Shown: piece after piece, positions 17,616 to 49,137 of the stretch
Position numbering within the stretch: the stretch's first letter is position 1
How the letters are laid out: each line of letters opens with the position of its first letter
From: an uncultured Syntrophobacterales bacterium
Lineage (GTDB): Bacteria > Desulfobacterota > Syntrophia > Syntrophales > UBA5619
Length of the DNA: 64,000 nucleotides
Direction: 5' to 3'
Assembly: GCA_903928915.1 (NCBI GenBank)
Contig: CAIYSL010000033.1
Coordinates: 62,001 to 126,000 of the forward strand
The notes under the pieces: generated by a model
Databases searched by the model: none
The model's input: the letters and a program-made list of their open reading frames with translations, nothing else
Told to the model about the DNA's origin: nothing
Program-made: the position numbers and the translations under genes

Positions 17616-17674
17616 AATTGTCGTGCCTGAAGCTGACCGGTCCGGCCTTTGCCGGGCCGAACCGACGAGGGGCC

Positions 17675-19450
17675 ATGGAACAGCAGCAACCGGGAAGAAA
17701 AAAGAGGAAGCGGCTCTGGGCAGTGCTCCCCCCCTGGCTGATCATCGGCTCGGTGGCGATCATCGCACCGCTTTTCATCTTCACGGCGCTGCAAGACATC
17801 AATCGGCAGCGGGAGCAGACCTCCCGCCTCCTTGTGGAGAAAGGGGCCGCCCTCATCCGCTCCTTCGAGGCGGGCGCCCGTACCGGAATCGGGATGCGCT
17901 GGGGAGGGTTTCAGCTCCAGAAGCTCCTGATGGAAACGGCCCAGCAGCCCGATATTGATTACCTGATCGTCACCGATACGGAAGGAAGGATCGTCGCCGA
18001 CAGCGACCCCGCGCGAATCGGGTTGAACCACGGGCAGGAATTGGACCTGGCCGCGATTGCCCGCTCGCAGACCCTTGCCTGGAGACGGGTCCCCCACAGC
18101 GAGGGTGCCGACACCTTCGAGATATATCGGCGGTTCGCACCGACGGACCAAGCGCTCCCCGATTTTCCCGCCGATCCGGCGCCGTCCCGCGCCGCGTCCG
18201 CGGAGGGCGCCTCCGGGTTCGTGATCTTCGTCGGGCTGGACATGGGTCCGATCGTCGCCGCCCAGGAGGAGGACCGGCGCCACACCCTCTGGATGGCCCT
18301 CATCTTCCTGCTCGTCAGCTGCTCCGGAATCATCTCGCTTCTTTTGGCCCAGGGCTACCGGACCGCGCGAAGTTCCCTCTCCCGGATCAAGGCCTTTTCC
18401 GACAGCCTCGTGGAAAACATGCCCATCGGACTGATCGCCGTCGATCCCCGGGGACAATTGATCGCCTTCAATCAGACGGCCGAGGGGATCCTCGGCCGGA
18501 GCGCACCGGATGTGCTCGGGAAAAGGGCGGACGAGGTCCTTCCCGAGGGGCTCCGGGAGATCTTCCGCCGGCTTGTGGGTGAAGGACGGGCGAGCGAACG
18601 GGAGATCGACTTCACCGCTGCCGAAGGGCGGACGATCCCGCTGGAGGTGATCGCGACGGTGCTCCGCGAGGAGGACGACGCCTTCGTCGGCTACATTATC
18701 CTCTTCCGCGACATGACAGAGGTACGGCGCCTCAAGCAGGAGGTGGCACGGAGCCAGCGGCTCGCATCCCTGGGGAGCCTGGCAGCCGGAGTCGCCCACG
18801 AGATCCGCAACCCGCTCAGCTCGATCAAGGGGTTTGCCACCTATTTCCGGGAGCGGTACCGGGAAAACCCCGACGACCGCGAGACAGCGGAGACGATGAT
18901 CAGCGAGGTGGACCGGTTGAACCGCGTCATCACCCAGTTGCTCGAATTTGCCCGGCCGATGACGATGAAGCGCGCCCCCACCTCGCCTGCGGTGGTGATC
19001 CGCCATGTCCTCAGGACGATAGAGGGGCAGGCCGCTCAGAAGGGGATCCGCATCGAAACGGACATCCCGGCTGCTCCCGCCGAGATCCCGCTCGACGCCG
19101 ACCGGATGAGTCAGGTTCTGTTGAACCTCCTGCTCAACGCCGTCGCGGCTACGGACGCAGGGGGGACGATCAGGATTTCCCTGGCGCAGCAGGACGACCG
19201 GACGGTCCGGATCGCCATCGCCGACACGGGCGCCGGGATCCGGCGCGAGGACCTTCCCCGGGTGTTCGACCCATACTTTACGACCAAACCCTCCGGCACC
19301 GGCCTGGGGCTTCCCATCGTCCAGAAGATCGTCGAGGCCCACGACGGTGCGATACATATCGCGAGCGAGGTGGGAACGGGGACGACGGTGACGCTCCTTC
19401 TGCCGACCGCGGCCGGGGATGAAAGGCACAACAGAGGTGACGGAACATGA
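17675..19450 (+). CDS. Membrane sensor histidine kinase, ZraS-like (PAS, HisKA, HATPase)
   Basis: A two-component kinase of about 591 aa from the ATG after GACGAGGGGCC. A TTG start 19 codons earlier is less likely. Layout: first TM helix (LPPWLIIGSVAIIAPLFIF), periplasmic sensor region of about 180 aa, second TM helix (LIFLLVSCSGIISLLLA), PAS domain (VENMPIGLIAVDPRGQ), dimerisation/phosphoacceptor helix VAHEIRNPLSSIKG with His375, then an ATPase domain with LLNLLLNAV (N box), ADTGAGI and GTGLGLPI. It overlaps the response-regulator gene by 4 nt. Divergence from a ZraP-like gene argues for sensing zinc, lead or envelope stress. Confidence 0.92.
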   Translation: MEQQQPGRKKRKRLWAVLPPWLIIGSVAIIAPLFIFTALQDINRQREQTSRLLVEKGAALIRSFEAGARTGIGMRWGGFQLQKLLMETAQQPDIDYLIVTDTEGRIVADSDPARIGLNHGQELDLAAIARSQTLAWRRVPHSEGADTFEIYRRFAPTDQALPDFPADPAPSRAASAEGASGFVIFVGLDMGPIVAAQEEDRRHTLWMALIFLLVSCSGIISLLLAQGYRTARSSLSRIKAFSDSLVENMPIGLIAVDPRGQLIAFNQTAEGILGRSAPDVLGKRADEVLPEGLREIFRRLVGEGRASEREIDFTAAEGRTIPLEVIATVLREEDDAFVGYIILFRDMTEVRRLKQEVARSQRLASLGSLAAGVAHEIRNPLSSIKGFATYFRERYRENPDDRETAETMISEVDRLNRVITQLLEFARPMTMKRAPTSPAVVIRHVLRTIEGQAAQKGIRIETDIPAAPAEIPLDADRMSQVLLNLLLNAVAATDAGGTIRISLAQQDDRTVRIAIADTGAGIRREDLPRVFDPYFTTKPSGTGLGLPIVQKIVEAHDGAIHIASEVGTGTTVTLLLPTAAGDERHNRGDGT

Positions 19451-20868
19451 ACGAGGAGATCTCCCTTTTGGTCGTCGACGACGATACGGCGCACCGGACT
19501 ATGCTCCGGAAGCTCCTTTCCGGGTGGGGATACGCGATCACCGAGGCCGACGACGGCGCGACCGCCGTCGAGGCGGTCCGCAGGCACCCCTTCGACCTGA
19601 TCCTGATGGACATCCGCATGATTAAGGTCTCCGGCCTCACCGCCCTGGCCGAGATCAAGGCGTTCAACCCGGCGATCCCCGTGGTCATCATGACTGCGTA
19701 CGCCTCCGTGGAGACGGCCGTCGAGGCGCTGAAAAAGGGGGCCTACGACTATCTGACAAAGCCACTGGACTTCGACGAGCTCCGCCTGACCCTGGAGCGG
19801 GCAGTCGACCACAGCCATCTCCGCCGGGAAAACCGCCTCCTCAGGGCAAGCCTCGGCGACCGGTTCGACCGGCCGAACCTGATCGGACGTTCCGCCGCGA
19901 TGACGCGCCTCATCGAGACCGCATCGCAGGTCGCCCCCTCTGAGGCGACGGTCCTGATCAGCGGAGAGTCGGGGACGGGAAAAGAGATGATCGCCGGGCT
20001 GATCCACACCAACAGCCTCCGCAAGGAGGGCCCGTTCATCAGGTTGAACTGCGCGGCGATCGCCGAAACCCTCCTCGAATCGGAACTGTTCGGCCACGAG
20101 AAGGGGGCCTTTACCGGCGCGGACCGGCGGAAGGAGGGCAAGTTCCGCCAGGCCGACGGGGGAAGCCTCTTCCTGGACGAGGTGAGCGAGATGTCCGTGG
20201 GGATGCAGGTGAAACTCCTCCGGGTGCTCCAGGAGCGGGAGTTGACCCGGGTCGGCGGCGAGGAGGTGATCCGTGTCGACGTTCGCCTCATCGCCGCCAC
20301 GAACCGTGACCTCCTCCGGGAGGTCGCGGCCGGCCGTTTCCGGGAAGACCTCTTCTACCGGCTGAACGTGGTCACACTGTTCGTGCCGCCGCTCAGGGAG
20401 CGGCAGGAAGACATCCCCCTGCTCGCCCAAGAGTTTCTCGTCCGGTTCGCCGAAAAAAACCGCAAGCCGATCAAGGGGTTCACGCCTCAGGCGATGGACC
20501 GTCTCCTCAGACACCCCTGGCCGGGGAACGTCCGGGAGCTGATGAACGCGGTAGAGCGGGCGGTGGTCCTCTCCCGTGGGGAGTATCTCGACGAAACCGA
20601 GCTTTCCCTTCTCCCGGCGGCACAGGGGACTCCGCCCCTCCCCCCGGGTGGGGAAGCGGCGCGGCAACTGGTTTCCGCACAGGAAGCCACCGCGGCGAGG
20701 CCCGGCGCCCCCGCCTCCGCCGCCTCCCCCTCGCTCGAAGCGGTAGAACGGGAAACGATCCTCCGGACGCTGGAGGGGGCCGGGGGCAACAAGAGCGAGG
20801 CCGCCCGCCGTCTCGGCATCACCCGCCGGACCCTCCACCAGAAGCTCCGGAAATACGGAATGATGTGA
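19447..20868 (+). CDS. Sigma-54-dependent response regulator, NtrC/ZraR family
   Basis: A transcription activator of 473 aa. The receiver domain has the DD pair near the N-terminus and phosphoacceptor Asp55 in LILMDIRM. The AAA+ domain has Walker A GESGTGKE (about residue 173), GAFTGA for sigma-54 contact (about residue 219) and GGSLFLDEV. The C-terminal Fis-type helix-turn-helix reads NKSEAARRLGITRRTLHQKL. A Pro/Ala-rich linker separates the AAA+ and DNA-binding domains. It is translationally coupled to the kinase. Its probable target is the divergent ZraP-like gene through the sigma-54 promoter at 17464-17479. Confidence 0.95.
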   Translation: MNEEISLLVVDDDTAHRTMLRKLLSGWGYAITEADDGATAVEAVRRHPFDLILMDIRMIKVSGLTALAEIKAFNPAIPVVIMTAYASVETAVEALKKGAYDYLTKPLDFDELRLTLERAVDHSHLRRENRLLRASLGDRFDRPNLIGRSAAMTRLIETASQVAPSEATVLISGESGTGKEMIAGLIHTNSLRKEGPFIRLNCAAIAETLLESELFGHEKGAFTGADRRKEGKFRQADGGSLFLDEVSEMSVGMQVKLLRVLQERELTRVGGEEVIRVDVRLIAATNRDLLREVAAGRFREDLFYRLNVVTLFVPPLRERQEDIPLLAQEFLVRFAEKNRKPIKGFTPQAMDRLLRHPWPGNVRELMNAVERAVVLSRGEYLDETELSLLPAAQGTPPLPPGGEAARQLVSAQEATAARPGAPASAASPSLEAVERETILRTLEGAGGNKSEAARRLGITRRTLHQKLRKYGMM

Positions 20869-21084: not shown

Positions 21085-22632
21085 ATGAATAAGCGCCCCT
21101 TCTCCCCCATTCTCCTGGCCTTCGTTGCCCTATTCCTCTGCACGTTACTGCCCCTTGCCGCCGTAGCCCAGCGATCGAACCTCCTGAAGGAGGGGATCGA
21201 GCAGTACAACAAGGAAAATTTCGAAGAGGCGATCGTGACCTTGACCCGTGCCAGGGAGGAGGCCCCTGCCTCGGCCGAGGCGGCGTTCTACCTCGGCATG
21301 GCGTACCGTCAGCTCAACGACATCCCCAGCGCCTACCGGCAGTTCGAGGCGGCGGTCGGCCTGAAGCCGCTCTCCGACAATGCCATCCTCGAGGTGATCG
21401 AAACGGCCACGCTCCTGGACAGGCTCGACGTGGCAAAGAAATGGATCGCCGTGGCCGAGGAGCACAGGGTCTACCCCGCCCGCGTGGCCTTCCTCAAGGG
21501 GGCGTCGCTGGCAAAGGAGGGGAAGCACGACGAGGCGATCACCGCCTACGAGCTCTCCAGGCGCCTCGACCCGACCTACGCGCAGTCTGCCGACTTCCAG
21601 ATCGGGATCTGCCTGATGAACCAGAAGAAGTACGAGCGGGCCCGGGACCTCTTCCAGGCGGCGGTAACCCGGGATCCCCTGTCCGACCTGGCCACCTACG
21701 CCCGCCGATACCAGGAGGCAGCGGAGCAGTGGCGCTTCATCCAGCGGCCGCTGCGGGTCACGATCGGGGTCACGGGACAGTACGACACCAACTACCGCAA
21801 CCTCGGGGACCCCTACGATCATGCCGTCTTCGGCTACAACGAGTATCTGGCGGAAACCGACAAGGCCAGCTTCGTCATGCAGAACGTCGTCCGCCTCGAC
21901 TACGTCCCCAACCTGCCGGCCCCTTTCGCCCTGACCGCGGGGTACGCGGCCCTCAACACGCTGCACCAGCGGTACGGTACCGACAACGACACCTTCGCCA
22001 ACTCCTTCACCCTGGCCCCCGGCATGAATTTCGAGGGCTTTGCCTTCAATCTCGTCGCCAACTACACCCACACCCTGAAGCGCGACCCCGGCTACCGCAG
22101 GTATTCCGAAGTTTCCAGCGTGGGCCCGCTATTCCGGTATCTGCTGCGCAAGGACCATATCCTCGAGGCGAACGTCTCCTATACGCGGAAGAACTTCTTC
22201 AAGCCGGTCTTTATCCCCGCGCAGGAGGACCAGTCCTCCCGCGGGCTGGAAAGCTCGCTCGGATGGATCTGGCTGTTCAGGGAAAACGCCTTCCTGAACC
22301 TGAAGCTCGGCTACAGCGTGGATGACGCCGAAGGGATCCACTACGACAACCAGGGGTACCGCGCCTCGGCCAGCCTGATCTATCCGCTGGCGGACGCCCT
22401 GCGGCTCCAGATCGGCAGCGAGCTGTACCTGCAGGACTACCGGAATGAGAATCTCGTTTACCGCAAGAACCGGAAGGACCGGAATTATACCGGGACGATC
22501 GGCGTGACCTGGTCGGCCTGGAAATACCTCGACGCCACCGCCCAGTACCTCTACCAGAACGTCTATTCCAACATCTACGCCTACGATTACCGGCGCCACA
22601 TGTTCTCCCTGGGGGTGGAGCTGAAGTTCTAG
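21085..22632 (+). CDS. TPR-domain outer-membrane beta-barrel protein
   Basis: A 515-aa envelope protein. The signal peptide (residues about 1-29, ending AAVAQ) is followed by four or five tetratricopeptide-like repeats to about residue 220 (e.g. AFYLGMAYRQLNDIPSAYRQF; DEAITAYELSRRLDPT). A C-terminal half of alternating aromatic/hydrophobic strands then ends in VELKF, with a terminal Phe typical of outer-membrane barrels. A TPR front with a barrel is the plan of Slam/type XI secretion translocons and of some polysaccharide exporters, but I cannot assign a family by eye. It is followed 37 bp later by the giant FecR-domain protein, an obvious candidate partner. The 216-bp gap upstream holds an 8-bp hairpin (20953-20980) and an isolated TTGACA near 21023. 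Confidence 0.8.
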   Translation: MNKRPFSPILLAFVALFLCTLLPLAAVAQRSNLLKEGIEQYNKENFEEAIVTLTRAREEAPASAEAAFYLGMAYRQLNDIPSAYRQFEAAVGLKPLSDNAILEVIETATLLDRLDVAKKWIAVAEEHRVYPARVAFLKGASLAKEGKHDEAITAYELSRRLDPTYAQSADFQIGICLMNQKKYERARDLFQAAVTRDPLSDLATYARRYQEAAEQWRFIQRPLRVTIGVTGQYDTNYRNLGDPYDHAVFGYNEYLAETDKASFVMQNVVRLDYVPNLPAPFALTAGYAALNTLHQRYGTDNDTFANSFTLAPGMNFEGFAFNLVANYTHTLKRDPGYRRYSEVSSVGPLFRYLLRKDHILEANVSYTRKNFFKPVFIPAQEDQSSRGLESSLGWIWLFRENAFLNLKLGYSVDDAEGIHYDNQGYRASASLIYPLADALRLQIGSELYLQDYRNENLVYRKNRKDRNYTGTIGVTWSAWKYLDATAQYLYQNVYSNIYAYDYRRHMFSLGVELKF

Positions 22633-22669
22633 AACTCGGCAGAACGACCTTGTCGTGAGGGGGTCAGCT

Positions 22670-25600
22670 ATGAAACGATCCGTGACGATCTTGTTAGCCT
22701 TGGCGGTGCTCGCGGCGCTGCCCTTTGCGGCCGTCGCCGCCCCGGTGGGGAAGATCACCGCGCTCGAGGGGAACGTGGACATCACCTCCGGCGAGCGGGC
22801 CGCCCGGGACGCGAGGCTGGGCGATGCCATCAGCGCCGGCGACATCCTCCGCGCCAAGAGCCGGTCCAAGGCCGAGGTCACCTTCCTGGACGGCAACATC
22901 CTCCGCCTGGCGGAGAGCACCCGGGTCCGGATCACCGACTACCAGGCCGGGGAGGGGAAGACCACCACGCTGGACCTGTTCCGCGGCAAGACCCAGAACA
23001 TCGTCTCCGGGCTGGCAAAGGGGGCCAAGTACGAGGTCCGCACCCCCACGGCGGTCTGCGGCGTGCGCGGGACCAATTTCTTCGCCTTTTTCCAGAACGG
23101 GGTGAGCGGATTCATCCCCACATTGGGAAGCATCTACGGCTACAACCGGGCAATGCCCGACGCGGTGCGGGTCGTGACGGTGGGCGCCTCGATCATGGTC
23201 CTGGCAGCCAACCAGCTGCCCTCGATCCAGCCGGTAACCTCCGGCGATCTGAACAAGCACGGCCAGGACACGACCCCGCAGGGCCCCCAGGGCGACGGAA
23301 AGAAGGACGAGGGGGCGCCGACGACGGCACCCACGACCACCGCGACGACGGCGGGCGACACACCCCCGCCTCCTCCGCCCCCGCCTCCGCCGCCTCCCCC
23401 GCCCCCACCGCCGCCGGTCACCACAACGGCGATGACGACCGTTTCGACGACCGTTTCGACGACGAGCACCACCACGTCGACCACGACCACGTCTTCATCA
23501 ACCACGACATCGGCGCCGACCACGGCGCCCACCACCGTACCCACGACCGTACCGACCACGGCGCCGACCACGGTGAGCACGACCGTGCCGACGACCGTTC
23601 CTACCACCTCCACGACGACGGTAAGCACGACCACCTCTACATCTACATCCACCTCTACGAGCTCATCCACCACCTCGTCGACCACGGTGATCACGACGAC
23701 GATATTGCCCACCACATCGGTGCCGACCACCACGGTGCAGCCGACCACCACGACGACGATCCCGCCGCTCGGCCAGATAGGCGGCCTCGCGGCCGGCCCG
23801 ATCGATGTCGGCACCGGCGCGGTGACGCTGACCGGAACGCTGACGAGTCCGACCGCACCGTCGCAGGGTCTGATGAGCAACATGGCCATGAGCGACGGGA
23901 GCACCTACACCGCCTTCGTTGCCGGCCTCGCCGGTTCCTGGCTCGGGCTGGTGGAGGGGATCTACCGCAAGCCGCAGGTGGGCGGCACGGGCTTTGACGA
24001 CGTCGGCCTGGTGTACGGATCGCTGACCGGCACGGTTTCGGGAAGCAGCCTCTCCGCATCCGGTACGGTCAACCGTACGGCCTTCCTGGGGACGATTCCC
24101 AGCGGCGCTACTCTGGAGACCTTCACGTTTCCGGTTTTCCGATTCAACACCATCGACAGCGACCTGTACACCTACGGACAGCAGACCAACGGGACGATTC
24201 AGGGATACACGACCACCGCCGGCGGCATCATCGGCGTCTGGGGGACGACGGACCACGGGACGTACAAGAACCCGGGCCACCCGACCCTGGCGGCACCCAA
24301 TTGGGCAGACTACGTTACGGGAGCGCGCATCATTCACGGGTTGAGCGGGGAGGGGCAGCTCACCCTGACGGACGACTCCCAGGGCCACACCTCTCTGACC
24401 GGGTCCATGAATTACATGGACACCCGCTATCTCGGCACGATTTCCCTCCATTACCTCGGGACGTACAACCTTTCGGGGTACAACCCGGACACGCGCACCT
24501 ATCCCTACAGCATCGCCGGAACGGGAAGTTGCCAGCTGGCGAGACTGGCCTTTACCGGCGAGGTCGGTAGCGGAACCCAGTATCTGTACGCCAACAACGC
24601 CGGCGTCTGGGCGGCCGCGGGCGGGTTCAGCGCCCTGCTCGGCGCGCTCGACCTCCCCTGGACCCAGGAGGTGGCCCTTATCTACCACGGCGGGGTAGCG
24701 CTCCCGGGCCAGGGATACGGCGGGGCAAATCTCCTCTGGAACGCACCGGTCGCCGGGTACGACGTCAGCAAGGGCACCTGGACCGCCGCCTACAACGGCA
24801 CCGGGGGATACGTCTACGGGTTCAGCGGCGGGCTGATCGCCGGCGCGTCGGGCGCAAAGACCGGCACACTGGCGCTGCTGTTCCTGGCGAGCGACCGCAG
24901 CGAGGCGGGGTGGCTGACCGGCCCGCTTGCGACTACGGACCCGTCGGTATGGATGGGTGACAGTGAATGGTTCCCGAACACGGGCCTGCCCCAGTTCGCG
25001 GGCCTGGCGCCGCAGGACACGGTCACCATCGGGACGGGCAGTCTGAGCGGGAAGCTGGGCGCCGCGTTCGGCGAGGTCGGGACGATGACCGGCAGCGTGC
25101 CGGGGAACGGCGGGATTGCCGCCCACTTTGTGCGGAACGGGACCGAGGCGCTCCCCTGGGGGATCTACAACCTCACGCTGGGCGGGACCTATACGCAGCG
25201 GCCGGCAGGGGTCGTCGCCTGGTCGGGCCGCGTCGGTGGCGCCAACTCCTTCCAGATCGGAGATTCGGGCGTCTGGATCGGACAGATCCTGAACGGAACC
25301 TGGTCGGCAACCGGCGAGCTCGGGGGCGAGGCGTCGGGCAACTACCTGACCGCTTACCAGTGGGGGGGCTTCTCGGGCCCCTATTACGGGATCAGCACCG
25401 CAACGGGCTCAAACGGCAGTTGGATCGGACAGAGCGTGGGGACCTACGAGGGGGTGTGGCTGGCCCTCAACGGAAACGTCTTCGGCAGCCTCAAGTATTA
25501 CTCCGGCGGCGGCGCTCTTGTACACGGAGGGGGAACCTCCGGCCTGATCGGCGGGGTGGGCAACCCCTTCCTGGGAGGTCTGCCGGTCAACCTGATGGGC

Positions 25601-27811
25601 AGTTATTCCCCTGACGGCGCGCTGTACCGGGAGCCGTCGCTGATGTACGGATCGGGCTGGTACGTCGCGGGCAACATCGGCATCAACACGCCGGCCGACA
25701 CGACCGACGACGGTACGTACAACGGCTACATCGTCGGCCTCTGGAACGGCGGGAGCATCGAGCAGGCAAAGATCGCCAGCCTCTACACCAGGACCGGGGG
25801 GAAGGCGGGCTACCTCTTCGCCAACCTGACGGGCAGTTACTACGGCGAAATCGAGATGTGGAAGGCCTCGGGGAACCTTTCCGTCACCGAGGTCATCGCG
25901 AGCGGAAACGCGACCAACAGCACCAGCGGTGCCGACCTCGTCCACGGCGGTTTTTGGGGAAAGGCGATGGCGGCGGGCGGGACCTACAGCTTCGCGGCGG
26001 ACGTAGTGGAAGGCGCCCTGCTGGGGCTCCGGGACCAGAACCCCGGCTGGGGGATCTGGAATATGGGGTTGGGCGGCACCTACACCGGCACCCCGACCTC
26101 GCCCTTCACGGCCAGGGTCGGCAGCGGGTCGTTCCAGTTGGGCAGCGTCGGTTTAGACGGATACTGGATCGGCGACCTCAACGTTACCTGGAGCGGCAAC
26201 CGGCTGTCCGCCGCCCTGACCAACAGCCGGTTCCTCACCGACCGCTTCACCGGTGAACTGGTCACCGGTCCCCAGGGCGGCATCATGGGTTCCTACGGTA
26301 ATCTCGTCGCGGGCACCGGCACCTGGGAGGCGGCAGGGGTGGGGATATACGAGAACGTCCGACCCCTGACGATCAGCAACGCGCTCACCCTGTCGGGCGG
26401 GCTCCCCATCCTGACCGGACTGATGGGTGTCAGCAACTTGGGCGGCGCCCCCAACGACCTCTGGACGGCCAAGACGGGCGATCTGTGGCTCATGGGAAAC
26501 TACTACGACGGAGGGGCACCCGGGTCGACTCTTCATACGGGGAGCGTTTCCAGCACCGGTGCGGGTTACTTCTCGTCAATCGGCGGCGCATACCGGGGGA
26601 CCCTGCTTCTTGCCGAGGATGACCAGAACAGCCTCTCGGGGGGGCTGAGGGGCCTGTACATCAAGGGCGGCGCCGCAGGGCTGCTGTTCAGCGACGCCTT
26701 TGCAGGCATGGTCTTTCCTTCCCTCGACATGTGGAGGAGTGACAGCGGCACGCTCAATGCCTATGAAATGGGGGCCACCACCGTCACGGAGCCGGAAATC
26801 GGCGACGCAGCCAAGGTGAAGACCGCCCAGATCAACGGCATCCCGGAAAAGCCGGTCTTCACGCGGGTCCCGACGAGCGCCGACTCATTCCTCGTCGCCC
26901 AGGAACAGACGACCACCACGCGGATCCTGGACCAGACCTGGGGGATCTGGAACAGCGCCCTGTCGGGGACCTATGTGAGCACGACACCGCTGGAGTGGGT
27001 TTCGGTGCGCCAACAGGGGGCCTCGGCCCATGGCGGGACAGGGGGCAGCGAGTATCTGCACTACACGCTGGGACCGGCGGTGAACGGCATCTCCACGGGG
27101 ATCGTCGCCGGAGCCCGGGTGGTGCTGAACGACCCGACACCGCCCGCCGGGATCACGGCCCCGGGTTCCTACACCGTGGTGACCGGCGGCGAGGTCAAGG
27201 GGCTGTTCAACCCCGGCGACTTCACCTGGAAGACCCTCTCCCAGGGCAGCTTCATGGAGACCAAGGCGTTCGTCGACAAGGTCGCGGCCATGAACGATAC
27301 GGACCGGGCGAATTTCATGAAGGCCACGAAGATCCCCGCCTTCCAGGTCGGAATTACGGACCTCCGGGGGAGCGGCGCCGTCACCGGCGGCACCATCGAC
27401 CTGGGGAGTCAGGCGGATGCGACAAAGGGGATCCTCGGCGCCGCCTTCTTCGCCGCCACCGCAGGCGGAGCACCCCAGATCTGGGCATCGGGAAACACCA
27501 CCGGCGCCTTCACGGGCGCCCCTACCGGCGGGAGCGTCGCCCTTTCGGGCTACGCGCCCGGCGGCACCGCGGCGACCAACGGAATCACGGCGAACTTCGC
27601 CGTCGGCACCTGGGGGGCGACGGTAGGGTCGACCTGGGCCGCGCAGATAACCAATGGCAACGTGCCTTCCGGAACAGCCGGGTTCCCGGCGGCAGGCACC
27701 CAGTTCCAGGGAGGAGCGGCCGGAAGGATCAGCACCGTGCCCAACGGGGTCTCGGGCGCCTTCTCCGGGACGGCGGCAGGAATCGCGCACGGCGTCGGGA
27801 CGGTCCAGTAG
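22670..27811 (+). CDS. Giant FecR-domain surface protein with Pro/Thr linker and long repeats
   Basis: About 1,713 aa from ATG at 22670 (GAGGGGG upstream; a GTG five codons earlier is less likely). The signal peptide (…LPFAAVAA) is followed by a FecR domain (about residues 25-150) with the hallmark EVRTPTAVCGVRGTNF. Then comes a low-complexity segment of about 18 consecutive Pro and about 130 mainly Thr/Ser/Pro/Val residues, and about 1,350 residues rich in Gly, Thr, Tyr and Trp with long repeats marked by WGIWN...L.GTY. It has no transmembrane helix after the signal and almost no cysteine. Such proteins are probably secreted or cell-surface; the function is unknown. Pairing with the preceding TPR-barrel protein suggests a transport or anchoring relationship. 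Confidence 0.8.
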   Translation: MKRSVTILLALAVLAALPFAAVAAPVGKITALEGNVDITSGERAARDARLGDAISAGDILRAKSRSKAEVTFLDGNILRLAESTRVRITDYQAGEGKTTTLDLFRGKTQNIVSGLAKGAKYEVRTPTAVCGVRGTNFFAFFQNGVSGFIPTLGSIYGYNRAMPDAVRVVTVGASIMVLAANQLPSIQPVTSGDLNKHGQDTTPQGPQGDGKKDEGAPTTAPTTTATTAGDTPPPPPPPPPPPPPPPPPPVTTTAMTTVSTTVSTTSTTTSTTTTSSSTTTSAPTTAPTTVPTTVPTTAPTTVSTTVPTTVPTTSTTTVSTTTSTSTSTSTSSSTTSSTTVITTTILPTTSVPTTTVQPTTTTTIPPLGQIGGLAAGPIDVGTGAVTLTGTLTSPTAPSQGLMSNMAMSDGSTYTAFVAGLAGSWLGLVEGIYRKPQVGGTGFDDVGLVYGSLTGTVSGSSLSASGTVNRTAFLGTIPSGATLETFTFPVFRFNTIDSDLYTYGQQTNGTIQGYTTTAGGIIGVWGTTDHGTYKNPGHPTLAAPNWADYVTGARIIHGLSGEGQLTLTDDSQGHTSLTGSMNYMDTRYLGTISLHYLGTYNLSGYNPDTRTYPYSIAGTGSCQLARLAFTGEVGSGTQYLYANNAGVWAAAGGFSALLGALDLPWTQEVALIYHGGVALPGQGYGGANLLWNAPVAGYDVSKGTWTAAYNGTGGYVYGFSGGLIAGASGAKTGTLALLFLASDRSEAGWLTGPLATTDPSVWMGDSEWFPNTGLPQFAGLAPQDTVTIGTGSLSGKLGAAFGEVGTMTGSVPGNGGIAAHFVRNGTEALPWGIYNLTLGGTYTQRPAGVVAWSGRVGGANSFQIGDSGVWIGQILNGTWSATGELGGEASGNYLTAYQWGGFSGPYYGISTATGSNGSWIGQSVGTYEGVWLALNGNVFGSLKYYSGGGALVHGGGTSGLIGGVGNPFLGGLPVNLMGSYSPDGALYREPSLMYGSGWYVAGNIGINTPADTTDDGTYNGYIVGLWNGGSIEQAKIASLYTRTGGKAGYLFANLTGSYYGEIEMWKASGNLSVTEVIASGNATNSTSGADLVHGGFWGKAMAAGGTYSFAADVVEGALLGLRDQNPGWGIWNMGLGGTYTGTPTSPFTARVGSGSFQLGSVGLDGYWIGDLNVTWSGNRLSAALTNSRFLTDRFTGELVTGPQGGIMGSYGNLVAGTGTWEAAGVGIYENVRPLTISNALTLSGGLPILTGLMGVSNLGGAPNDLWTAKTGDLWLMGNYYDGGAPGSTLHTGSVSSTGAGYFSSIGGAYRGTLLLAEDDQNSLSGGLRGLYIKGGAAGLLFSDAFAGMVFPSLDMWRSDSGTLNAYEMGATTVTEPEIGDAAKVKTAQINGIPEKPVFTRVPTSADSFLVAQEQTTTTRILDQTWGIWNSALSGTYVSTTPLEWVSVRQQGASAHGGTGGSEYLHYTLGPAVNGISTGIVAGARVVLNDPTPPAGITAPGSYTVVTGGEVKGLFNPGDFTWKTLSQGSFMETKAFVDKVAAMNDTDRANFMKATKIPAFQVGITDLRGSGAVTGGTIDLGSQADATKGILGAAFFAATAGGAPQIWASGNTTGAFTGAPTGGSVALSGYAPGGTAATNGITANFAVGTWGATVGSTWAAQITNGNVPSGTAGFPAAGTQFQGGAAGRISTVPNGVSGAFSGTAAGIAHGVGTVQ
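23318..23766 (+). repeat. Low-complexity Pro/Thr-rich coding tract
   Basis: A run of CCN codons (about 23362-23415) encodes about 18 prolines, followed by many near-repeats of ACG ACC GTN and similar, encoding TTVPTT, TTAPTT and TSTST units. Codons vary between units, so selection appears to act on the protein (an extended, stiff linker) rather than on a pure slippage repeat, but length change by recombination is plausible. Confidence 0.85.
25157..26938 (+). repeat. Two consecutive 891-bp (297-aa) repeat units in the FecR-domain protein
   Basis: TGGGGGATC, the start of the WGI(W/Y)N motif, occurs at 25157, 26048 and 26939, exactly 891 bp apart both times. Downstream blocks align too: LGGTYT then a RVG...SFQ(I/L)G...G.WIG segment. 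A related TGGGGGACG (GVWGTTDHGTY) lies at 24239, 918 bp before the first. The units are diverged, indicating old internal duplication. Confidence 0.75.
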
Positions 27812-46532: not shown

Positions 46533-46868
46533 GTGGCTGCCCGATCACCGCATCCCCAAGATGACCCCTCCCGCCTCCAGAGCGAAAACCGCCACCTCCG
46601 GGAGACGGTGGCCGCTCTCCGGGAAGCGATGGACAGGATGCGCGGCGAGGAACAGGAACGCCGACAGCATGCCCTTGCCGCGGCGCGCGACGAGATCGCC
46701 CAGCTCAGGGGGACAGTCGCGGCCCTGCGCGAGAAGCTGGAGCAGCTCAAGGTCGAGGACGACCGAAGGCTTTGCGCCGTCGAACAAGCCGCACGGGACC
46801 AGGCAAGACAGCTCCAGGAGATGATCCTGAGGCTGCGGGAGCAGCTGGAGCGACATGAAAAAAGATAG
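46533..46868 (+). CDS. Small coiled-coil protein overlapping the cyclase gene
   Basis: A predicted 111-aa protein with a GTG start after GAGGTGATG. After about 15 residues it is a continuous heptad-like coiled coil rich in Leu, Glu and Arg (HLRETVAALREAMDRM; QLRGTVAALREKLEQLK), with the unit LR(E/G)TVAALRE(A/K) occurring twice. It has no signal or membrane helix. It overlaps the start of the adenylate-cyclase gene by 14 nt, so their translation is probably coupled, and it may bind or dimerise with the cyclase; that is inference. Confidence 0.7.
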   Translation: MAARSPHPQDDPSRLQSENRHLRETVAALREAMDRMRGEEQERRQHALAAARDEIAQLRGTVAALREKLEQLKVEDDRRLCAVEQAARDQARQLQEMILRLREQLERHEKR

Positions 46869-49137
46869 CCCTCCGAAAGAGCCGGCCCCGAAGCAGGTGC
46901 GGTACGCGAAGGCCGGCGAAGCGGAGATGCTGCTCGGCATCTCCCGGACGATCGCGGCGTTCGAAACCCTCGACGGGATCCTCACGGGCATGGTCGAGAT
47001 CACCGCCCGCGAACTCAATGCCGACAGGGCCACCATCTTCCTCAACGACCCCGAGGCGGGCGAACTCTACTCCCGCGTCGCCCAGGGCGATATCCACCGG
47101 GAGATCAGGATGCTGAACGACTCGGGCGTGGCCGGCCACGTATTCACTACCGGCAGCGGGGTGATCGTCCATGATGCCTACCGGGACCGGCGGTTCAACC
47201 GGGCAATCGACGAACGGACCGGCTACACCACCAGGTCGATCCTCTGCGTCCCCATCCGGACGACCAAGGGGGAGATCATCGGTGTGGCCCAGGCACTCAA
47301 CAAGCGGAAGGGCCGGTTCACGAAGGCCGACCTGCGGTTTCTCGAGTCGATGACGACGCAAGCATCCATCGCCCTGCAGAGCACCCAGTACGTGGAGCGG
47401 ATGAAGCAGTTCCGGCAAAAGGAGATGGAGTTCTTCGACATCGTCTCCGATATCACCGCCGAGATCGACCTCGGGGCGCTCCTCCAGAAGGTGATGTCCG
47501 AGGCAACGAGGATGCTGAACGCCGAGCGGGCAACGCTTTTTTTAAACGACGAGAAGACGGGCGAGCTCTTCTCCAAAGTCGGACTGGGATTGCAGGCGAC
47601 CGAGATCCGACTTCCCAACCACCTCGGGATCGCCGGTGCGGTTTTCACCTCCCGGCAGACGATCAACATCCCCTTCGCCTACGCCGATTTGCGGTTCAAC
47701 CCCTCCTTCGACCGGAAGACCGGGTTTTTCACCCGCTCGATCCTCTGCGTGCCCGTCGTCAACAAGGACGGAAAGATCATCGGGGTGACCCAGGTCCTGA
47801 ACAAGCGAAGCGGCCCCTTCACGGCTGAGGATGAGTCGCGGCTCAGGGCCTTCACCGCTCAGGTTTCCATCGCGCTCGAAAACGCCAAGCTGTTCGACGA
47901 CGTGCAGAACATGAAGAATTACAGCGAAAGCATGCTGGAGAGCATGTCCAACGGCGTACTCACCATCAACGAGGAAGGCATGATCCTCACCTGCAACACC
48001 GCGGGCCTGCGGATCTTACGGACGTCGCCCGGGGAGCTGCTTCGCCGCATGGCCGCTGACTTCTTCGCCGGCCCGAACGCCTGGATTAGCGAGAAAATCC
48101 TGAACGTGGAGGCTGCGGGAAAACCCGACATCATCATGGACGCGGAGGTGGCGACGGGGGAGAGCGCGACCTCGGTAAACCTGACGATCCTTCCGCTGGT
48201 CAGCACGGCGCAGAAGAGGCTGGGCTCGCTGCTGGTCTTCGACGACATCACCAGCGAAAAGCGGATGAAATCGACCATGTCCCGGTATATGGACCCCGGA
48301 CTTGCCGACCAGATCCTCGGCGGGTCGGAAGAAATCCTGGGCGGGACGAGCACGACGGCCACGGTCCTGTTTTCGGACATTCGGGGGTTTACTACCCTCA
48401 CCGAAGAGCTCGGGCCGCAGGGAACGGTATCGCTCCTCAACGAGTACTTCACGCTCATGGTGGACTGCATCCAGAAGGAAGGCGGGATGCTGGACAAGTT
48501 CATCGGGGATGCGATCATGGCCGCCTTCGGGGTCCCCATCCCGCACGACGACGACGAAGACCGGGCCGTGCGGACGGCGATCGCCATGATCCGGGCGCTC
48601 CAACTCTGGAACGCCCGGCGGGCCGCCGACGGGAAACGGCCGGTGGGCATGGGAATCGGGCTCAACACCGACACGGTCGTCTCCGGGAACATCGGCTCGC
48701 CGAAGCGGATGGATTACACCCTGATCGGCGACGGGGTCAACCTGGCCTCCCGCCTGGAGGGGCTCTGTAAGCAATACCACGCGTGCATCCTGATCAGCGA
48801 GAATACCCTTCGCCGGCTGAAAGGGACCTACCGGGTGCGCGAAGTCGACCGCGTCCGGGTAAAGGGAAAGACGCAGAGCGTAGGGGTGTACGAGGTCCTG
48901 GATTACCATACCGAGGCGAGTTACCCCAACCTGCCCGAGGGGATGAACCACTTCCGGGACGGGTTGGCCCGCTACCGAGGCCGGCAATGGGATCGGGCGG
49001 TGGCGATGTTCACCGAGACACTCAGGATCAACCCGCAGGACCAGCTCGCCCGGATGTACGTCGACCGGTGCGCCGAGTTCCGGGCGAATCCGCCCGGCGA
49101 CGACTGGGACGGCGGGTGGGTGATGCACACAAAATAG
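46855..49137 (+). CDS. Tandem GAF-PAS adenylate cyclase, CyaB1-like
   Basis: A soluble signalling enzyme of 760 aa. Order: GAF-A (about 30-175), GAF-B (about 195-345), PAS (about 360-480), class III cyclase (about 500-680) and a short C-terminal TPR-like part (ARYRGRQWDRAVAMFTETL). Metal ligands are Asp508 (LFSDIRGFT) and Asp552 (KFIGDAIMA), with Lys548 as expected for ATP. GAF-B has a complete NKFDE-type cyclic-nucleotide motif (Asn316, Lys317, Phe322, Asp326, Glu327); GAF-A has NK..F...D with Leu for the last Glu. This is the layout of cyanobacterial CyaB1/CyaB2, which are activated by cAMP itself. Positive feedback here is inference. Confidence 0.9.
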   Translation: MKKDSPPKEPAPKQVRYAKAGEAEMLLGISRTIAAFETLDGILTGMVEITARELNADRATIFLNDPEAGELYSRVAQGDIHREIRMLNDSGVAGHVFTTGSGVIVHDAYRDRRFNRAIDERTGYTTRSILCVPIRTTKGEIIGVAQALNKRKGRFTKADLRFLESMTTQASIALQSTQYVERMKQFRQKEMEFFDIVSDITAEIDLGALLQKVMSEATRMLNAERATLFLNDEKTGELFSKVGLGLQATEIRLPNHLGIAGAVFTSRQTINIPFAYADLRFNPSFDRKTGFFTRSILCVPVVNKDGKIIGVTQVLNKRSGPFTAEDESRLRAFTAQVSIALENAKLFDDVQNMKNYSESMLESMSNGVLTINEEGMILTCNTAGLRILRTSPGELLRRMAADFFAGPNAWISEKILNVEAAGKPDIIMDAEVATGESATSVNLTILPLVSTAQKRLGSLLVFDDITSEKRMKSTMSRYMDPGLADQILGGSEEILGGTSTTATVLFSDIRGFTTLTEELGPQGTVSLLNEYFTLMVDCIQKEGGMLDKFIGDAIMAAFGVPIPHDDDEDRAVRTAIAMIRALQLWNARRAADGKRPVGMGIGLNTDTVVSGNIGSPKRMDYTLIGDGVNLASRLEGLCKQYHACILISENTLRRLKGTYRVREVDRVRVKGKTQSVGVYEVLDYHTEASYPNLPEGMNHFRDGLARYRGRQWDRAVAMFTETLRINPQDQLARMYVDRCAEFRANPPGDDWDGGWVMHTK

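Follow-up and report, generated by a model that had tools for sequence, protein, structure and literature searches.

In this work we have examined two adjoining genes within a window of 64 kb, by which we mean the whole stretch of DNA that was analysed, on contig C33. The genome has 4.34 Mb, and its nearest relatives carry the names Syntrophaceae or Syntrophales. The genes encode a TPR-barrel protein and, directly behind it, a giant exported protein with an N-terminal FecR domain. The reading that we prefer, and consider rather likely, is that the two form an outer-membrane display system of two partners which is related to type XI secretion (T11SS), with the C-terminal domain of the cargo leading export and its FecR domain serving as a periplasmic anchor. 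The barrel probably exports the giant surface protein, and the pair looks like a distant, undescribed relative of Slam/type XI secretion whose cargo is held within the envelope by a plug-like FecR domain. The locus contains the following features.

17618 to 20868, forward strand: sensor kinase and NtrC-type response regulator (NtrB/NtrC), directly upstream of the pair (open reading frames, relatives' loci)
21085 to 22632, forward strand: TPR-barrel gene, 515 aa (open reading frame, Pfam, AF2)
22670 to 27811, forward strand: FecR-domain cargo gene, 1713 aa (open reading frame, Pfam)
22670 to 22741, forward strand: Sec signal peptide of the cargo, aa 1-24, ending in AAVAA and without a lipobox Cys (sequence)
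22748 to 23284, forward strand: FecR domain, aa 27-205, candidate periplasmic anchor (PF04773, profile comparisons)
23285 to 23785, forward strand: low-complexity linker rich in Pro, Thr and Ser, about aa 206-372, including a run of 18 Pro (composition)
23786 to 27121, forward strand: variable passenger with three WGIW/WGIY modules (sequence, passenger comparison)
27122 to 27808, forward strand: conserved C-terminal domain, aa 1485-1713, a predicted all-beta barrel whose last strand carries FSGTAAG, candidate export signal (alignments, class search, AF2)

An earlier, sequence-only reading of this DNA had described a signal-bearing TPR domain joined to an outer-membrane barrel with a final Phe, and this description holds. 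The barrel protein consists of a signal peptide (aa 1-29, with a Sec-type N-terminus), a TPR domain (aa 32-219) with strong Pfam TPR matches and a barrel (aa 223-515) which ends in VELKF, i.e. in a C-terminal Phe; 57 of 60 barrel homologues end in either Phe or Tyr. Structure prediction, which had been proposed as a check, came out in favour of the barrel, since the AF2 model built with 60 homologues has TPR helices at residues 32-219 and 14 strands at 223-514 with a mean pLDDT of 92.9. The outer-membrane proteins of T11SS combine a DUF560 barrel with a TPR domain, and the C-terminus of their cargo is an eight-stranded barrel (PMC8406197, PMC12282271). They are defined by a plan, also predicted here, in which a periplasmic TPR domain precedes a barrel of 14 strands (PMC8406197), and this agreement is one reason for favouring T11SS-like display. 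Structure comparison of the barrel gave CymA (Z 22) and OmpG (Z 21), and a search of PDB sequences with the barrel profile gave no match. In Pfam searches the window barrel does not reach the cut-off of PF04575 (SlipAM/DUF560; 12 vs 22 bits) and narrowly passes that of PF10082 (BBP2_2; 23.9 vs 23.7 bits), the latter over its last 55 residues only.

The cargo gene starts with an ATG at 22670, 37 bp past the barrel stop, and a ribosome-binding-like GAGGGGG lies just 5' of it. Its FecR domain is over the PF04773 cut-off (40.1 vs 24 bits) and is the sole Pfam match of the protein, and residues 200-400 contain 39% Thr and 18% Pro, so that the short gap, the exported FecR protein of 1,713 aa and the Pro/Thr linker which had been noted earlier were all borne out. 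Nearly all homologues have a low-complexity linker after FecR, rich in Thr/Pro, Glu, Gly/Ser or Pro depending on the species, and because of these differences it seems that the disorder of the linker, and not its sequence, is conserved. Barrel and passenger are encoded by two genes, and Pfam gave no barrel family match in the cargo, which does not fit an autotransporter or inverse autotransporter; no RTX family match was found in the cargo either. The C-terminus had also been called repeat-rich, and this stood only in part: there are three degenerate WGIW/WGIY copies in the passenger, at residues 830, 1127 and 1424, but BLAST found no self-repeat in the cargo, and what is best conserved towards the C-terminus is a terminal domain of ~210 aa with a last strand such as FSGTAAGxxK. 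This domain stays conserved between homologues while the middle of the protein varies, which again argues for T11SS-like display. In the AF2 model (pLDDT 90.2) it is all-beta, with a hairpin at its N-terminus. Fold comparison of the domain gave weak matches, with a best Z of 5.4 and TbpB at Z 3.8-4.0 among unrelated barrels; Foldseek gave nothing under E 0.05, and neither a Pfam search nor a PDB sequence search with the domain produced a match. At locus L145 (G074:C213) a cargo-tail piece, GMFTGTAAGIVR, ends a single open reading frame among barrel fragments, an arrangement such as a deletion between the two genes, or a join made in assembly, would leave.

How constant is the association of the two genes? 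The FecR gene adjoins the barrel in all nine barrel-bearing genomes of the family. When GTDB contigs were scanned, 80 loci were found, distributed among Desulfobacterota (Syntrophales, Desulfobacterales, Geobacter/Geomonas), Nitrospirota and Omnitrophota, and 71 of these had at least 700 bp downstream and were testable. A FecR protein is encoded downstream of the barrel in 68 of the 71, within 300 bp in 56 and within 2.4 kb on the same strand in 12 more; of the three others, two are at contig ends and one (L170) has the cargo C-terminal domain upstream. The pairing is not a matter of chance, since it recurs so regularly, and the two-gene pair is conserved in many families, from at least three phyla; the survey of gene neighbourhoods suggested earlier was thus passed strongly. 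Among 155 genomes of the class, the barrel occurs in 34, the cargo C-terminal domain in 28 and both in 25 (Fisher p 2.9e-18, a value that is too small owing to the relatedness of the genomes). It is this co-occurrence, together with the position of FecR behind the barrel, that also leads us to favour T11SS-like display. In three genomes the domain was found without the barrel, as contig-end fragments; we had considered free-standing cargo genes elsewhere and rejected them, since the apparent orphans were such fragments. The same C-terminal domain is present in most of the long partners, and many intact partners have 540-2800 aa. In a minority of genomes the partners are short, FecR-only proteins without this domain, and the barrel may therefore have a role that involves no passenger, which speaks against T11SS-like display. 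One genome has tandem cargo genes, two behind one barrel. The Omnitrophota-type partners at L198, L213, L220, L223 and L227 have two tandem FecR domains. A plasmid search with the FecR end of the cargo gave no match.

The resemblance of the barrel to T11SS goes beyond its general plan. With hhalign, the window barrel family matched SlipAM-positive barrels at E 2.9e-23 over 272 columns, and at E 7.6e-42 when the TPR part was included, whereas the control, a comparison with BBP2-type barrels mostly from polysaccharide loci, gave E 2.6e-10 over only 93 columns. Because the SlipAM and the BBP2-type control barrels also match each other (E 1.4e-19), all three kinds belong to one superfamily. In the tree, the window family groups with the SlipAM barrels, and the Wza-locus barrels stand apart with a support of 100/100; the support for the window family as a single clade is low, at 34%. 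A PF04575 match at E<1e-3 is present in 17 of 60 barrel homologues, and some members of the window family, in other classes, exceed the SlipAM cut-off. By profile comparison, the barrel family is homologous to the Slam/DUF560 barrels of T11SS. Desulfobacterota also contain bridging loci, which encode, in this order, a SlipAM barrel (63.6 bits), a FecR protein with TbpB_B_D at its extreme C-terminus (35.5 vs 26 bits) and a CHASE2-cyclase. Profile homology, tree grouping and these bridging loci all speak for T11SS-like display. The cassette of SlipAM barrel, FecR/TbpB_B_D cargo and CHASE2 cyclase was seen at L268 (804-7167), L269, L299 and L300, and it looks like an undescribed T11SS cluster.

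The Slam/T11SS plan that had been read from the window is thus supported at the level of the family, but for the window pair itself the barrel is below the cut-off and the cargo domain is not TbpB_B_D by sequence. Pfam found no TbpB_B_D (PF01298) in the C-terminal domain of the window cargo, and hhalign found no similarity between this domain and the TbpB_B_D cargo of the phylum. Together with the low SlipAM score of the window barrel and the weak fold matches, this counts against T11SS-like display, and given the empty hhalign comparison we do not claim direct homology of the window cargo to T11SS cargo. BLAST between passengers of T11SS-type and window-type cargo gave no match. Nearly all T11SS-type FecR cargo (L268, L269, L275, L299, L300, L301, L297, L296) has a WGxW motif 150-185 residues before the C-terminus, which the WGIW motifs of the window passenger resemble at the level of the motif only.

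What, then, could a FecR domain do in such a protein? A profile of 56 FecR domains matched one chain in the PDB, 5ix9, deposited as 'Antifreeze protein' (E 2.9e-4), which we take to be the N-terminal region of the Marinomonas ice adhesin. The NCBIfam LapA retention module (NF033682) was matched by 52 of the 56 domains, below or near its cut-off (best E 4.4e-8), and the window FecR domain does not reach this cut-off (23.8 vs 50 bits). With hhalign, the FecR domains matched five LapA-type modules of the phylum at E 2.1e-6 over a 67-residue core. The FecR core therefore appears to resemble the retention modules of LapA-type adhesins, which act from the periplasm to keep adhesins at the outer membrane (PMC13090378), and the idea that the large protein could reach from the periplasm through the barrel to the surface gains support from this likeness to LapA/MpIBP modules. 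The linker after the window FecR domain contains no LapG cleavage site, a point against T11SS-like display; such a site is present in 5 of 66 homologues. In the window's own genome, FecR, TPR and barrel are fused in one chain of 1171 aa (L011:7233-10748, G000:C32), followed by a 700-aa homologue of CHASE2-cyclases. The fusion places FecR and TPR in one compartment, on the periplasmic TPR side, and along with the retention-module likeness and the tandem cargo genes it adds to the case for T11SS-like display.

The neighbours of the pair differ between relatives. In one close relative the orthologues of NtrB/NtrC lie 5' of the barrel; in another they adjoin the FecR gene. CHASE2-Guanylate_cyc genes are located near many pairs and beside most loci of the SlipAM version; there is none beside the window pair. 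In loci of Desulfobacterales, genes for a LuxR/VpsT-like regulator and a PilZ protein separate the barrel from FecR, and other loci have a Crp-like regulator or an SLT transglycosylase near the pair. As such neighbours are typical of the control of biofilm and surface attachment, we prefer an adhesin or matrix role. Neither a promoter scan nor Rfam yielded anything of use at the locus, and we found no description in the literature of FecR with CHASE2 or with surface secretion. The window also encodes a GAF-PAS-guanylate cyclase of 760 aa (46855-49137), and a 79% identical homologue lies immediately 5' of the barrel/FecR pair of another genome (L161:5488-7770). About 22 kb upstream of the pair there is a second FecR giant (G000:C33:56938-60603; L010:6938-10603) with a 72% identical FecR region; it has no barrel neighbour, sits between leuA/leuC-like genes and is broken at its 3' end by a frameshift or stops. 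A BBP2-type barrel followed by a FecR protein with TTVPTT repeats (L013:23-2632, G000:C89) lies beside a polysaccharide-export (Wza-like) gene and is a second pair of another kind.

Could the barrel instead be a polysaccharide or solute export porin of the BcsC/PelB/EpsL kind, with the FecR protein as a periplasmic or matrix partner and not as cargo? BcsC is the best full-length fold match of the barrel protein and PelB also scores high, which together with the marginal BBP2_2 match agrees with this possibility. So does the pairing of BBP2-type barrels with FecR proteins in polysaccharide loci, near the Wza-like gene of the same genome and again at L304, and this pairing also weighs against T11SS-like display. 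We nevertheless think such a porin improbable. PgaA-type porins have 16 strands (PMC8406197) vs the 14 of the AF2 model, no synthase genes were recognised beside the pair, the control profile match is limited to 93 columns, and the tree keeps the Wza-locus barrels apart from both the window family and the SlipAM barrels.

It may also be that the pair is an envelope sensor similar to FecA-FecR, in which barrel and surface passenger sense the outside and periplasmic FecR relays to a CHASE2-cyclase or a two-component kinase. The recurrent CHASE2 genes, the NtrB/NtrC genes upstream here and in a close relative and the short FecR-only partners would suit such a relay. Yet the window pair has no CHASE2 gene, the neighbours vary by taxon (VpsT-like, PilZ, Crp, SLT), and a sensor has no obvious need for a conserved C-terminal domain or for partners of up to 2800 aa, so we regard this function as unlikely; it would in any case be compatible with T11SS-like display. 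Co-transcription might be all that links the genes, the giant being periplasmic or exported by another route and the barrel doing something unrelated. The cargo paralogue of the same genome has no adjoining barrel, which agrees with this and also tells against T11SS-like display. But the near-universal pairing over several phyla, the co-occurrence, the FecR-TPR-barrel fusion and the bridge to T11SS pairs make a mere neighbourhood very unlikely. The candidate two-partner display with a Slam-like plan proposed in the sequence-only reading is upheld and strengthened by the analysis; judged from sequence, the pair would be a variant that works like type XI secretion, not a proven member of it.

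For T11SS-like display we envisage the following course of events. Sec would take both proteins into the periplasm, as suggested by the signal peptides seen, and the TPR-barrel would insert into the outer membrane with the TPR domain on the periplasmic side, as in the predicted fold. Next, the cargo's C-terminal barrel domain would be recognised and would leave through, or together with, the 14-stranded barrel, drawing the passenger out, a step modelled on co-conservation and on T11SS. The low-complexity linker would cross the envelope, and FecR would remain periplasmic, either bound to TPR or acting as a plug. The passenger, most likely an adhesin or matrix protein, would thereby be tethered at the surface in the manner that the profile similarity of FecR to LapA-type modules suggests. 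Output or control probably occurs by cyclic-nucleotide signalling, as CHASE2-cyclase, Crp-like, PilZ and VpsT-like neighbours in relatives would indicate. Tentatively, and with some doubt about the whole, we propose that a widespread FecR-anchored T11SS-like branch exists in at least Desulfobacterota, Nitrospirota and Omnitrophota. Its FecR domain, resembling a retention module, would plug the translocon or dock to it, a giant adhesin would be threaded through the outer membrane and cyclic nucleotides would exert control.

If the display reading is true, T11SS-like export extends well past Proteobacteria and handles very large, envelope-tethered cargo, and FecR domains acquire a concrete role outside sigma signalling. 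The combination of barrel, FecR and C-terminal domain would then be a predictive rule for surface proteins, one that could be applied to bacteria with mostly unknown adhesins, namely syntrophic, sulfate-reducing, metal-reducing and magnetotactic ones. The FecR-anchored branch, if real, would be a further mode of holding surface adhesins besides lipidation and TolC plugging.

Among known systems, T11SS (Slam/NilB/HrpB, DUF560/PF04575, with cargo of the TbpB/HphA type) shares with the window pair the TPR domain and 14-stranded barrel, the cargo next door, the conserved C-terminal beta domain on an otherwise variable cargo and profile homology over the full length of the outer-membrane protein. 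The window pair differs in a barrel under the PF04575 cut-off and in a cargo domain that is not PF01298 by sequence; its cargo is far larger, with an N-terminal FecR domain and linker, and its lineages fall outside the T11SS cargo survey of Proteobacteria, which contains no FecR or Desulfo term (PMC12282271). The export barrels of the BBP2_2/EpsL and BcsC/PelB kinds are likewise outer-membrane barrels, with TPR in BcsC/PelB, but the window barrel is unlike them in strand number, gene context and tree position. With FecR anti-sigma factors and signal transducers the window cargo has the PF04773 domain in common, whereas it is a giant with a signal peptide and no sigma factor gene adjoins it. 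It shares with LapA/MpIBP/DvhA (T1SS with LapG/LapD) a layout of an N-terminal beta domain, a disordered stretch and a giant passenger, with profile similarity in the FecR core; unlike these adhesins, it has a Sec signal peptide and its own TPR-barrel instead of TolC, and it is without a LapG site or an RTX match.
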